64,000 nucleotides of DNA from Microbacterium sp. SY138 (lineage in GTDB: Bacteria; Actinomycetota; Actinomycetes; Actinomycetales; Microbacteriaceae): positions 1,178,001 to 1,242,000 of the forward strand of contig NZ_CP155793.1 in NCBI RefSeq assembly GCF_039729145.1, written 5' to 3'. Within the stretch, counting starts at the first letter, position 1. Each line of letters begins with the position of its first letter. Positions 41,229-45,911 of this stretch are shown here, in pieces. The notes under the pieces were generated by a model. It searched no databases. It was not told where the DNA came from and saw only the letters and a list, made by a program, of their open reading frames with translations. The translations under genes and the position numbers were made by a program.

Positions 41229-41921
41229 TCAGACGAAGAGGTTCGCACGCTCCAGGTCTTCCGCGAAATCGACCTCGACCGCGTACAGGTCGGACACGTC
41301 CATCGGCTCGAGCAGCAGGCCGTCCTCGGCGATCGCGAGTTCGAGCCCGCGCTCGAAGTAGTCCTGGTCCTCGACGCGCTGCAGCTGACGCATGAACGCC
41401 TTCTTGTGCGCGGAGGAGATGTAGTTGATTCCCACGGCCTCGCCGAGTCCGCCCTTGACGGTCTTGGACAGCTCGTTGATGAAGCCCTCGGCCGTGACCG
41501 TGTACTTCACCTCTTCGTCGCTGACCTTGGAGGTGTTCACCGTGACGAACGACTGGTCGCGCTCGATGTACTCGAGTGCGCGGCCGAGGATCATCGGGTC
41601 GAAGACGACATCGCCGTTCATCCAGAGAACTCCGCCGCGACCGGTCGCGCCCAGGGCGCGCAGGAGGCTCTTCGAGGTGTTGGTCTCGTCATAACGCTCG
41701 TTGTGGACGTAGTTCACCTGCGGGAACGCGTCGATGATGGTCTCGGCGCGGTAGCCGACGACGGTGGTGATGCGGGCGTCCGAACCGAATGCGGCGCGGA
41801 TGTTGTCGTGCTGCTGGCCCATGATCGTGCGGCCGTCGCTCAGTTCGGTGAGCGGCTTCGGCAGCGCGCGGCCGAGGCGCGAGCCCATTCCGGCGGCGAG
41901 GATGACGGTCTGAAGAGTCAC
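41229..41921 (-). CDS. Sugar- or choline-phosphate nucleotidyltransferase
   Basis: 230 residues of the NTP_transferase family. The signature VILAAGMGSRLGRALPKPLTEL opens the protein, WMNGDVVFDP has the metal Asp, and VGINYISSAHKKAF and YAVEVDFAEDLERA recall LicC/IspD-like CTP:phosphocholine or inositol-phosphate cytidylyltransferases. The exact substrate is unknown. Unlike many neighbours it has a regular ribosome site (AGGAG, 7 nt before the GTG). Confidence 0.82.
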   Translation of the reverse strand: MTLQTVILAAGMGSRLGRALPKPLTELSDGRTIMGQQHDNIRAAFGSDARITTVVGYRAETIIDAFPQVNYVHNERYDETNTSKSLLRALGATGRGGVLWMNGDVVFDPMILGRALEYIERDQSFVTVNTSKVSDEEVKYTVTAEGFINELSKTVKGGLGEAVGINYISSAHKKAFMRQLQRVEDQDYFERGLELAIAEDGLLLEPMDVSDLYAVEVDFAEDLERANLFV

Positions 41922-42158
41922 GAGTGCTCCTAAAGGAAGTTGTGTTCACGGTCGATTAACCGACCAGACACTTCGTCGTGCCGCGTTCATGGTATCGATT
42001 CCGCCTGGGAAGCTCAGGGCCGGGAGGCCCCTGTTGTCATTTCGTGACCGACTACACACCGGATGCACAGGGTTCCGTCTCCCGTGCGATCGCGGCGGAA
42101 ATGCGCGATCCGAGGGCAGTTTATTGCGCGGCGGCCTTGGCGTACAGGCACCCGTTGA

Positions 42159-42164
42159 TACCGT
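42159..42164 (+). promoter_or_regulatory. -10 hexamer TACCGT for the HupB-like-tail ABC ATPase gene
   Basis: It lies 6 nt before the GTG at 42171. This placement is the main evidence that the long N-terminal region is really translated. Confidence 0.55.
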
Positions 42165-42170
42165 AGGACG

Positions 42171-44063
42171 GTGACTGCCTCCCCTGACGACCGCACCGCC
42201 CAGGTGGACCAAACCGAGACCGCGCAAGAGAAGACGTCGGCGAAGCGCGCGCCGGCGAAGAAGCAGAGTCCGGACGCGGCATCCGCCACCGAGAAGTCGG
42301 CGCGACCGCCCGCGGTGAAGAAGCCCGCCGCGAAGAAACCCGCCGCGAAGAAACCCGCGGTGAAGAAGCCTGCGAGCGCGAGCACCTCCGCGGGTTCGAA
42401 GGCCGGCAGTGCCGCGGTGTCGAAGTCGTCGGCTGGGAAGTCGTCGGCTGGGAAGTCGTCGGCAGCGACGTCCGGGACGCAGGCTGCTGCCGAGAAAGCG
42501 GCTCCCAGTGCGGATGTCGTGGTCGAGCCGCTCGTCAAGGCCGTCACCGGCTCGACGGCGAAACTCTCGTCGACCGCGAGCTCCGCTCGGAGCACCGCCG
42601 GGGCGCGCAATGCCGACGCGAAGGCCACGGCTGCGAAGACCACCGCGGCCAAGACCACGGCTGCGAGGACGACGGCGGCGAGGACGACGGCTGCGAAGAC
42701 GACGGCGGCGAAGACCACGGCGGCGAAGACGACGGCGGCGAAGACAGCGGCTGCGAAGACGACGGCTGCGAAGACGGCCGCGGCCAAGACGACGGCGGCG
42801 AAGGCCGCTGCATCCAAAGCGGCCGCGGCGAAGACCACGGCGCGCTCGGCTGCCGCGAAGACCACGGCCGCGAAGGCCACGGCCGCCAAGATGGCGGCCG
42901 CGAAGAAGGCGGCGGCGAAGAAGGCGGCAGAGGAGGCGAAGGCGGCCGCGGAGACGGCGGTGACCGCACCCGAAGTTCCGCCCGTCACGGCTGCTCCTCT
43001 CGCAGCCTCTCCCGTGATCGAGACCGCATCGGTCGTCGAGACCGTTCCTCCGGCCGCCTCCGCTGCGGCGCCGACCGGGTCTGTCGCGGAGCCCGTGCCC
43101 GCCGCAGAGCCTGCGCCCGCGCCCGCCTCGGAGCCGCCTCTCGCCGCGGAGCCTGTCGAGGAATCTGTCAGTGCGGAACTTCTCGAGACGGAGACGCCCG
43201 TCGGCGATCCGTCCGAGGTGGAGTCGAGCGAGGCCATCCAGGCGGTCGGGGACTCCGACGACGCAGCTTCCGACGCCGTGAAGCCCGATGAGGTCTTCTC
43301 CGCCGGCGAGGCGATCAGCATCCGCGGGCTCGTGAAGCAGTTCGGCGACAACCGCGCAGTCGACGGCATCGACCTGACCGTGCCCGCGGGGTCGTTCTAC
43401 GGAATCGTCGGGCCCAACGGTGCCGGCAAGACCACGACGCTCTCGATCGTCGCCGGGCTTCTCCGCGCCGACGCGGGCAGCGTCGTCATCTGCGGTGTCG
43501 ACCAGGCCAAGAAGCCGCTCGCGGCGAAGAGGCTGATGGGTGTGCTCCCCGATCGGTTGCGCACGTTCGACCGCCTCACCGGTCGGCAACTGCTCTACTA
43601 CTACGGGTTGCTGCGCGGCCTCGCCGCGGATGTGATCGAGAAGCGCGCGGCCGACCTCGCTCGTGCCTTCGATCTGGGCGATGCCCTCGGCCGCGTGGTC
43701 TCGGACTACTCGGCCGGCATGACGAAGAAGATCATGCTCGCAGGGGCCATGATCCATTCGCCGCGCGTGCTGGTCCTCGATGAGCCGTTCGAGTCGGTGG
43801 ACCCCGTCTCGTCGGCGGTCATCCTGGACATCCTCCGCGCCTATGTGTCGCACGGCGGCACGGTGATCCTCTCCAGCCACGGCATGGATCTCGTCGAACG
43901 CGTGTGTTCGCGCGTCGCGATCATCGTCGGCGGAGAAGTGCTCGCCGAGGGGACGATCGACGAGGTGCGCGCGGGTCAGACGCTCGAAGCGCGCTTCGTG
44001 GAACTCGCCGGCACCAGCGGAGAGGTGGAGGGGCTCGAGTGGCTGCACACGTTCTCCGACTGA
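42171..44063 (+). CDS. ABC transporter ATPase with a 380-residue histone-H1/HupB-like Lys-Ala-rich N-terminal region
   Basis: 630 residues. About 1-380 is low-complexity: AKKPA/VKKPA units (about 48-68, like the tail of mycobacterial HupB or eukaryotic H1), KSSAG units, then about sixteen AAKTT-type pentapeptides (about 150-263), and an acidic Pro/Ala/Glu stretch. From about 380 an ABC ATPase follows: SIRGLVKQFGDNRAVDGIDL, Walker A GPNGAGKTT, signature DYSAGMTKKI, Walker B VLVLDEPFESVDP, H-loop LSSHGMD. The permease gene overlaps its end. The basic tail could bind DNA, RNA or anionic polymers (inference). ABC-2 type exporter; substrate unknown. Confidence 0.88.
   Translation: MTASPDDRTAQVDQTETAQEKTSAKRAPAKKQSPDAASATEKSARPPAVKKPAAKKPAAKKPAVKKPASASTSAGSKAGSAAVSKSSAGKSSAGKSSAATSGTQAAAEKAAPSADVVVEPLVKAVTGSTAKLSSTASSARSTAGARNADAKATAAKTTAAKTTAARTTAARTTAAKTTAAKTTAAKTTAAKTAAAKTTAAKTAAAKTTAAKAAASKAAAAKTTARSAAAKTTAAKATAAKMAAAKKAAAKKAAEEAKAAAETAVTAPEVPPVTAAPLAASPVIETASVVETVPPAASAAAPTGSVAEPVPAAEPAPAPASEPPLAAEPVEESVSAELLETETPVGDPSEVESSEAIQAVGDSDDAASDAVKPDEVFSAGEAISIRGLVKQFGDNRAVDGIDLTVPAGSFYGIVGPNGAGKTTTLSIVAGLLRADAGSVVICGVDQAKKPLAAKRLMGVLPDRLRTFDRLTGRQLLYYYGLLRGLAADVIEKRAADLARAFDLGDALGRVVSDYSAGMTKKIMLAGAMIHSPRVLVLDEPFESVDPVSSAVILDILRAYVSHGGTVILSSHGMDLVERVCSRVAIIVGGEVLAEGTIDEVRAGQTLEARFVELAGTSGEVEGLEWLHTFSD
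42617..42960 (+). repeat. 15-bp coding minisatellite (GCGAAGACGACGGCG-type units)
   Basis: Tandem 15-bp units encode the AAKTT pentapeptides in the ABC ATPase N-terminus, with synonymous differences (acg/acc, gct/gcg) between copies. Many near-identical units follow each other, so copy number may vary between strains. Confidence 0.85.
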
Positions 44064-45604
44064 GACTCGCGCTTCTTCTCGGTTCCCTGCGCGGCGACCG
44101 TCGGGTTCGATCGATCGTCTCGTTCGTCGCGGTGGTCGCGGTCACCGCCGCGGTGTGCGTCGCCGTGTTCAGCCTTGCCGCAGCCTCTGTACCGGTGGCC
44201 CGCGCGGTCACGGTGCTCGGTGGCGCGGCCCTTCTCATCGGATTCCTCGTCGGCCCGATCCTCGTCGGGGCCGTCGATCAGCTCGACCCGAGACGCTTCG
44301 CGGTCTTCGGCGTCGATGATCGCCAGATGCCCTGGGTGCTCGCACTGGCCGCCTTCGTCAGCGTGCCGAGCATGGCGCTTCTCGCCGTCTACATCAGTGT
44401 CTGCATCGTCGCGATCGGAGCAGGCACGCCCTGGCCTCTGGCTGTGCTGGTGACGATCGCCGGTGTCCTGACAACGATGCTGGTCTCGCGGATCGGTATG
44501 GCCCTCAATGCACTGCTCCTTCCCGAGCGCCGCTCCCGCGAGCTCACGGCGCTGTTCGCACTCGCGCTGATCGTGGTCGCCTTCCCTGTCGCGGTCTTCT
44601 TCGGATCGCTTCGTTGGGACGGTCTCGTGCCCTCGTCTCTGGCGACCCTGTCGAGCGTGTTCGGCTACAGCCCGTTCGCTGCTGCCCCCGCCTTCCTCTT
44701 CGATTCCGCGGCCGGTGCGACCGCTTCCGCGTGGATCAGCGGTGTCATCGTGGTGCTCACCGTCGCTCTCCTCTGGATGGTGTGGACGTGGCTCGTCCGG
44801 CGTCTGCTGACCACGACCGAGCGTCCGGTCGCCTTGCGCGAGCGCACCGGACTCGGGTGGTTCGGGCTGCTGCCGTCGAACGCCTTCGGTGCGATCGCGG
44901 CGCGAAGCCTCGTGTATTGGCTTCGTGACCGCCGCTACATCATGAACATCATCGTCGTCCCCGTGGCCGGCGTGCTCTCGATGCTCCCGCTCGTCGTGGC
45001 CGGAGTCCCGTTGGAGATCGCCGCGCTCGTGCCCGTGCCGGTGATGGCGCTGTTCTTCGGGTGGCTGCCGCACAACGACGTCGCCTACGACTCGACGGCA
45101 TTGTGGACCCACGTCGCGAGTGGCGTCCGGGGTCTTCCTGATCGCCTCGGGCGTCTCGTTCCTGTGCTGCTCGTCGCCATCCCCGTTCTCGCCATCGCGG
45201 TTCCGCTCTCACTCGCGCTGATCGGGGACTGGAGTCTGCTGCTGCCGTTGGGCGGCTTGGCGGCCAGTCTGCTGTTCTGCGCGCTCGGCGTCTCGAGCAT
45301 CGTCTCGGTCGTGGCTCCGTATGCGGTCTCGCGGCCTGGTGACAGTCCGTTCCAGCAGCCGCAGCGACCGACCTCTCGCGGGGCGTACGGTCCTGCAGCG
45401 GCGTTGCTCGGCGCCATCGTGCTGAGCGTGCCGACCATCTGGTTGTTCGCAGCGACGATTCTCGACGGTTCGGCGTACGCTCCGGCGACCTTCTGGGTCG
45501 GGCTTCTCGTCGGTCTCGTGACCGCGGCAGCCGGAGCCGTCGTCGGCGGTCGCATCTTCGAGCGCAGTGGAGAGCGCCTGATGGAGTTCGTCGAGACCGC
45601 GTGA
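44039..45604 (+). CDS. ABC exporter permease, multi-pass membrane protein
   Basis: 521 residues with about twelve hydrophobic segments and short loops, no recognised catalytic motif. It starts with a GTG that overlaps the last 25 nt of the ATPase gene; no better start is visible in this frame before the first membrane segment. Position identifies it as the partner of the preceding ATPase. I do not recognise a substrate; similar ABC exporters of this size are annotated only as putative. Confidence 0.82.
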   Translation: MAAHVLRLRLALLLGSLRGDRRVRSIVSFVAVVAVTAAVCVAVFSLAAASVPVARAVTVLGGAALLIGFLVGPILVGAVDQLDPRRFAVFGVDDRQMPWVLALAAFVSVPSMALLAVYISVCIVAIGAGTPWPLAVLVTIAGVLTTMLVSRIGMALNALLLPERRSRELTALFALALIVVAFPVAVFFGSLRWDGLVPSSLATLSSVFGYSPFAAAPAFLFDSAAGATASAWISGVIVVLTVALLWMVWTWLVRRLLTTTERPVALRERTGLGWFGLLPSNAFGAIAARSLVYWLRDRRYIMNIIVVPVAGVLSMLPLVVAGVPLEIAALVPVPVMALFFGWLPHNDVAYDSTALWTHVASGVRGLPDRLGRLVPVLLVAIPVLAIAVPLSLALIGDWSLLLPLGGLAASLLFCALGVSSIVSVVAPYAVSRPGDSPFQQPQRPTSRGAYGPAAALLGAIVLSVPTIWLFAATILDGSAYAPATFWVGLLVGLVTAAAGAVVGGRIFERSGERLMEFVETA

Positions 45605-45644: not shown

Positions 45645-45911
45645 ATGAGTACTCCGCTGGACAGCCCCGATCAGGGCGGCGTGGCAACGCTTGATCGCGA
45701 ACTGGAAGAGCTCCTCCGCGAGGAGAATCTCGAACCGGGTGACCATGAGCGCTTCTCGCATTACGTGAAGAAGGACAAGATCCTCGAGTCCGCGATCACC
45801 GGCAAGCCGGTGCGCGCGCTGTGCGGCAAGAAGTGGACCCCGGGCCGTGACCCGGAGAAGTTCCCGATCTGCCCCACATGCAAGGAGATCTACGAGTCGA
45901 TGATCGGCTGA
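45645..45911 (+). CDS. DUF3039 domain protein
   Basis: 88 residues. It contains [11 protein letters not shown] and a zinc-ribbon-like pair: [20 protein letters not shown] with CPTCKEIYE. This small family is common in Actinobacteria and has no assigned function; a metal-binding role is inferred from the cysteines. It converges on pncB with 2 nt between the stops. Confidence 0.9.

Follow-up and report, generated by a model that had tools for sequence, protein, structure and literature searches.

Why should an ABC transporter ATPase begin with a long, charged N-terminal tail, and does that tail belong to the gene at all? The gene in question lies in a window of 64,000 nucleotides, positions 1178001-1242000 of a 3.9 Mb, single-contig Microbacterium genome, and its product already has a public record as an 'ABC transporter ATP-binding protein' (P0003, 630 aa, Microbacterium sp. 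K27). The frame (42171..44063, +) is intact from GTG 42171 to TGA 44061-44063 and encodes 630 residues, the tail comprising residues 1-376 and the ABC ATPase domain residues 377-630. A sequence-only reading of this DNA had described an unbroken frame in which 380 unusual residues precede an ordinary ATPase domain. The frame is indeed unbroken and the domain ordinary (Pfam ABC_tran, residues 398-540, 81.1 bits, cut-off 25); the long tail is present too, with a length of 376 residues. The nucleotide-binding domain, encoded together with the stop codon at 43299..44063 (+), is DrrA/ABCA-like and is 100% identical over 254 residues to one on a contig of Microbacterium maritypicum MF109 (locus L041).

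A chance open frame in GC-rich DNA is ruled out. We compared 88 unique Microbacterium loci drawn from the closest matches (L011-L120 and L239-L241; 113 before contig-edge and duplicate frames were removed). In 82 of them the frame is open from a start placed by a promoter motif to the ATPase domain, a distance of 90-508 aa (median 349), and substitutions in the tail, counted over non-independent pairs, favour the third base (26080, 19882 and 39540 by codon position). The open frame and the third-base excess together lead us to reject chance. Long antisense frames also exist at the locus (700 aa), and we take these as by-products of the GC-rich sequence. Comparison among the relatives therefore confirms that the ATPase frame with its N-terminal tail is real, and that the tail belongs to the gene.

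The start itself is marked by a putative promoter. An extended -10 element, TTGATACCGT at 42155..42164 (+), combines TGA (42156-42158) with the hexamer TACCGT (42159-42164), and GTG 42171 follows after 6 nt. The sequence-only reading had picked out both this hexamer and this GTG; the hexamer holds up and gains the upstream TGA, and the start proves to be conserved together with the -10 across genus and family. The strict motif lies upstream of an in-frame start in 82 of the 88 unique Microbacterium loci, with a spacer of 6 nt in 73 and 7 nt in 9. In relaxed form (TGnTAnnnT, 5-8 nt, in-frame start) it is found at all 88 Microbacterium loci and at 48 of 56 family loci, against a background of 1 in 11811 starts in downstream coding sequence and 6 in 764 internal tail starts; because of the latter, a few relaxed matches may be internal. 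The fixed letters of the strict motif are invariant in the 82 loci by construction, the motif being the selection criterion, so that the free columns alone are evidence. These are conserved as well: A 89%, C 91%, C 87% and G 73% inside the motif, and A 75% and G 89% just after it, compared with only 35-74% for columns at the would-be -35 box. From an extended -10 ending 6 nt before the GTG, we infer that the transcript is probably leaderless. The first eight residues read VTASPDDR or VTSSPDDR in 34 of the 82 motif-started loci.

Translation might nevertheless begin just before the ATPase domain, in which case the tail would never be made. Some public annotations do start inside the frame (P0037, 359 aa; P0061, 366 aa), and at the corresponding loci, L052 and L054, tails reckoned from the conserved start are 353 and 380 aa long. 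Several observations speak against such a truncated product, which we consider very improbable: the start and its -10 are conserved at both genus and family level; starts inside the frame that lie no more than 40 aa from the domain are scattered over the 88 Microbacterium loci without a conserved position; starts within 60 aa that are preceded by a Shine-Dalgarno sequence occur at only 6 of the 88; and a tail-less clade described below retains the -10 directly upstream of its own start. An internal start near the domain, common to the loci, is ruled out by this scatter. The public annotation of L052 (P0037) and L054 (P0061) appears to drop most of the tail.

Sequence and structural models are best read as identifying the gene product as the ATPase of a type V (ABC-2) exporter. 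Its best NCBIfam model is the DrrA subfamily (TIGR01188, 196.5 bits, under the cut-off of 312.45), the best PDB sequence match of its domain is ABCA7, and the residues that we take to be Walker A, signature and Walker B are invariant in an alignment of 53 rows (A2). A permease gene (44039..45604, +; putative start codon) overlaps the end of the ATPase gene by 25 nt and encodes 521 residues with two ABC-2-type halves in one chain. Compared with Pfam, NCBIfam and PHROG, the permease yields nothing at the thresholds applied, and it has no relative in the PDB by sequence, a single match to TMH4C4 standing at E 0.088. Its predicted structure (pLDDT 86) matches the folds of CcmB and of the Rv1217c/Rv1218c pump. 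The partner thus has the ABC-2-type transmembrane fold, and the ATPase the ABC motifs.

The neighbourhood is equally consistent. Of 256 ABC loci, 186 are followed by a long complete frame, which matches the permease in 177 cases. The third gene of the window locus encodes a DUF3039 protein of 88 aa (45645..45911, +; Pfam 109.4 bits), and the divergent neighbour is an NTP-transferase (41229..41921, -; Pfam NTP_transf_3). Across the family the permease accompanies the ATPase at 56 of 57 loci, the DUF3039 gene at 54 and the divergent NTP-transferase at 52, a conserved neighbourhood that supports orthology.

What kind of tail is it? The basic block, residues 1-260 (42171..42950, +), opens with VTASPDDR and continues with KKPA units and AAKTT-type pentapeptides, the latter encoded by tandem 15-bp units spanning 42618-42946; its net charge is +36. 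The acidic Pro/Ala/Glu block, residues 261-376 (42951..43298, +), has a net charge of -22. The tail is a disordered block polyampholyte, not one polycation. AlphaFold2 gives 10-residue mean pLDDT values of at most 55 for residues 1-220 and of 41-57 for residues 261-380, with one predicted A/K helix at residues 214-260. As a conserved element this helix is ruled out, its motif being present in 2 of 88 tails.

This picture modifies the sequence-only reading in some respects. Its acidic Pro/Ala stretch is real. Its AKKPA units correspond to four KKPA, and its count of about sixteen AAKTT pentapeptides is reached only in the looser form AA[KR][TAM][TAM] (16), exact AAKTT numbering 9 and AA[KR]TT 11. 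The likeness to HupB and histone H1 that it proposed stands for the basic residues 1-260, which resemble HupB and TopA tails, and fails for the acidic residues 261-376; the Pfam histone-H1-like model HC2 (PF07382) scores 24.8 bits, below its cut-off of 40, so that 'H1-like' denotes composition, not family membership.

The block arrangement recurs across the 88 Microbacterium loci. Net charge over the whole tail has a median of -3.5, with 35 of the 88 tails positive overall and 51 negative. The first 60% of the tail is positive in 75 of 88 loci and the last 40% negative in all 88, and the most basic 60-residue stretch lies N-terminal to the most acidic one in every case. Charge segregation exceeds that of shuffled sequences (z > 3) in 86 of 88 Microbacterium tails (median z 10.2) and in 29 of 40 family tails, tails shorter than 80 aa or lacking the motif having been left out of the family test. 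Both segregation and the basic-then-acidic order are looser in the family than in Microbacterium: of the 40 family tails, 26 are positive over the first 60% and 23 negative over the last 40%, and the 46 family tails of at least 80 aa comprise 24 basic-first two-block tails, 6 acid-first, 10 basic only, 5 acidic only and 1 neither. The Lys/Arg ratio is 1.93 in the tail versus 0.36 in the domain; Lys exceeds Arg in 73 of 88 Microbacterium tails, and in only 16 of 47 in the wider family. Aromatic residues account for 0.26% of the Microbacterium tails and Cys for 0.02%.

By sequence comparison, the tail is widespread in Microbacteriaceae. A close match (E 1e-85 or better) is present in 115 of 119 Microbacterium genomes, the window's own included, and in 108 of these 115 the stop-to-stop frame of the best match, counted by eye, exceeds the 254-aa domain by 100 aa or more. 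Absence of the tail from all close relatives, which the sequence-only reading had named as the outcome that would overturn it, is therefore not what we find, although an intact short gene is present in five Microbacterium genomes (L247-L251). Seven genomes have no such long frame (G038, G032, G057, G103, G043, G056 and G091); the match in G056 lies near a contig end, and G091 has only a paralogue-like match. Of the 199 genomes drawn from the family, 162 match at E 1e-75. The complete family loci, one per genus (56, after one edge locus was removed from 57), have tails of at least 80 aa in 46 cases and of less than 80 aa in 10, and 40 of the 46 long tails include a 40-aa segment with a charge of at least +8. 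At the order level, 118 of the 198 genomes drawn have a match, 14 of them in the same genus or family; among the 104 matching genomes of other families, the 14 loci inspected, whose starts are partly uncertain, have no Lys/Ala tail. The window genome also encodes a paralogue of 261 aa, 55% identical and without a tail.

Two side observations concern these draws. Of the 37 family genomes that do not match at E 1e-75, the 20 listed (for example G128, G131 and G133) are all small, 0.9-2.4 Mb. This suggests either that reduced genomes can do without the pump or that its sequence there has diverged too far to reach the threshold. Nine order-level domain matches have one stop codon inside, seven of them in one family, f6 (G319, G337, G353, G394, G446, G460 and G487, with G440 and G329 the remaining two).

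How did the tail arise? In a tree of 106 ATPase domains, built from one in five Microbacterium loci sorted by identity together with family, order and extra loci, 90 rows from Microbacteriaceae group together (support 100/100); outside this group, among the order-level rows, lie a single family locus (L237) and the paralogue from the window genome. The five short genes, L247-L251, which are not among the 88 loci, have tails of 3-61 aa and constitute one nested group (100/95) beside long-tailed relatives. TGnTAnnnT stands directly before the start in four of them, and in L249 the -10 hexamer, TAGATT, is all that is left. Short N-termini rich in Pro, Ala and Gln are seen in several order-level relatives. 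The simplest history suggested by these sequences would be an early expansion of a short N-terminus, followed by one later loss in Microbacterium and by shortenings elsewhere in the family.

The tail has remained variable. Among motif-started rows of the Microbacteriaceae group in the tree its length is 3-719 aa, and the window tail differs from that of L041 by 5 extra residues at one site and 26 missing residues at a second. In all 231 pairs of 22 close loci pN is lower than pS in the tail, and median pN/pS is 0.55 in the tail versus 0.06 in the domain, values that come from non-independent pairs and a protein-guided alignment of repeats biased towards synonymous change; the tail evolves much faster. 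By sequence, the composition of the tail is shown to be constrained more than its order of residues. The tail could on this evidence be a weakly constrained, low-complexity expansion, in which GC-rich 15-bp repeats lengthen and contract by slippage, beginning from a short ancestral N-terminus, contribute bulk or spacing only, and stay soluble through charge balance. The range of lengths, the strain-level repeat changes, the high pN/pS, the tail-less clade and the short N-termini of order-level relatives are all as such an expansion would have them. Less easily accommodated are the retention of the tail in most of the family, its charge blocks, the preference of Microbacterium tails for Lys although the domain prefers Arg, and the recurrent VTASPDDR/VTSSPDDR N-terminus. 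We regard a passive expansion as possible but doubtful.

Similar tails occur elsewhere in the same genome. All 23 matches to a KKPAAKK-type pattern fall in this gene and five others: TopA, trigger factor (L269), ribosomal protein L15 (L274), a pyridine-nucleotide oxidoreductase that we take to be NDH-2-like (L271:1441-2868) and a 152-aa protein without a Pfam match (L276:1465-1920), which, judged by eye, is probably YtxH-like and membrane-bound. Their densest 60 residues carry +20 (TopA), +12 (trigger factor), +15 (L15), +9 (NDH-2-like) and +5 (152-aa protein), and those of the tail studied here +14. In L15, the stretch sits in an N-terminal extension. By this survey Lys/Ala tails are not specific to DNA binding, their partners being DNA, the ribosome and probably the membrane.

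These comparisons bear on the function that the sequence-only reading had proposed, namely that the subunit can also bind DNA, RNA or an anionic polymer and so tether nucleoid or mRNA to the membrane. In the form weighed here, the Lys/Ala block would bind nucleic acid (chromosome, mRNA or ribosome) and tie the pump to the nucleoid or to mRNA under translation. After the gene itself, the best match of the tail is the TopA tail of its own genome (E 2.6e-5). A protein-database search with the tail (7972 candidates scored, in which only proteins of about 350-1100 aa could appear) returned 47 matches, assigned by Pfam to 35 ABC proteins, 7 primary sigma factors, 2 topoisomerases and 3 others. Prokaryotic DNA-binding proteins show an enrichment of lysine-rich low-complexity regions (PMC6821194), and related tails act on DNA or the nucleoid: the PAKK/KAAK tail of HupB is required for nucleoid association (PMC5676037), lysine repeats give TopA processivity (PMC7398561), and the KPAA tail of AlgP binds DNA and spaces polyphosphate granules (PMC9239181). 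On the other hand, the whole tail is charge-balanced, its basic peak is lower than that of TopA, and the lysine preference does not extend to most tails of the wider family. Moreover, KKPAAKK tails are also found on ribosomal and probable membrane proteins, so that the analogy with HupB alone does not point to DNA. A specific nucleic-acid tether seems to us unlikely.

We favour, tentatively, a third reading, in which the charged arms cluster or position the type V exporter by pairing of their blocks with one another and with anionic polymers; the sequence evidence leads us to rank it first, weakly constrained expansion second and the specific tether third. ATPase and permease are probably made from one leaderless transcript. 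The ATPase would reside in the cytoplasm, bearing an arm with a disordered Lys/Ala block and then an acidic Pro/Ala block, and there would be two arms per pump if the assembly resembles Rv1217c/Rv1218c, whose structure entries each contain two ATPase chains. Pairing would join the Lys block on one arm to acidic blocks on other arms and to anionic polymers of the cell, and it would cluster or position the exporter at the membrane and perhaps modulate it. The arm is presumably dispensable for transport, given that the pump persists without it in one Microbacterium clade. The opposite charge of the second block speaks for pairing between arms or for self-shielding. Clustering is also in keeping with the charge segregation in genus and family, the excess of pS over pN in the tail, the lysine preference, the tree, the synteny and the exporter fold. 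It has a precedent in Rv1747, likewise an ABC transporter, whose regulatory module is reported to phase-separate (Heinkel 2019, as cited in PMC12455900). Against clustering stand the weaker block order in the family and the different layout of Rv1747, and the order of the blocks could come from repeat expansion and inheritance within one genus.

How far do the known systems resemble this one? Rv1747 has FHA domains and a disordered regulatory region. Here too a long disordered region, evident from pLDDT and charge blocks, is attached to an ABC protein; however, the ATPase and membrane parts are separate genes, the tail is made of Lys/Ala and acidic blocks, and no FHA domain is found in the ATPase protein among Pfam matches up to E 0.01. 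The Rv1217c/Rv1218c pump, a mycobacterial type V ABC exporter, has a fold like that of the permease here and no sequence match to it. The solved Rv1218c chains, of 289-311 residues, match from residue 3 or 10 and so lack a long N-terminal tail. HupB and actinobacterial TopA share AKKPA and KAAK-type repeats with the basic block, but theirs are C-terminal tails on DNA-binding proteins, whereas ours lies at the N-terminus of an ABC ATPase and has an acidic block after it. Only the first block is a PAKK/KAAK-rich disordered tail of the HupB kind, and no HU DNA-binding domain appears among Pfam matches up to E 0.01. The KPAA tails of Pseudomonas PhaF and AlgP are H1-like repeats that link non-DNA cargo (granules) to the nucleoid; the cargo here would instead be a membrane pump, and no phasin-like domain was found.

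Already known are Rv1747, an ABC transporter reported to phase-separate, and tails of the H1-like type on DNA and granule proteins. What is new is such an arm on a separate ATPase subunit, family-wide and with an acidic counter-block; a literature search, with most subscription journals outside its scope, found no paper describing the ATPase tail. To our knowledge, few charged disordered arms are known on membrane transporters, whereas they are well studied on DNA-binding and granule proteins.

The comparison of annotated and conserved starts (P0037 and P0061) suggests that automatic annotation can trim such tails. It is a speculative prospect, and on balance an improbable one, that an H1-like block and an acidic block tie an exporter family-wide to the nucleoid, ribosomes or polyphosphate, or form charge-driven condensates at the membrane. 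With an arm across most of the family, a conserved start, and one clade (L247-L251) that lacks the arm and serves as a natural control, Microbacteriaceae offer a natural experiment on the role of charged disorder in a membrane machine.
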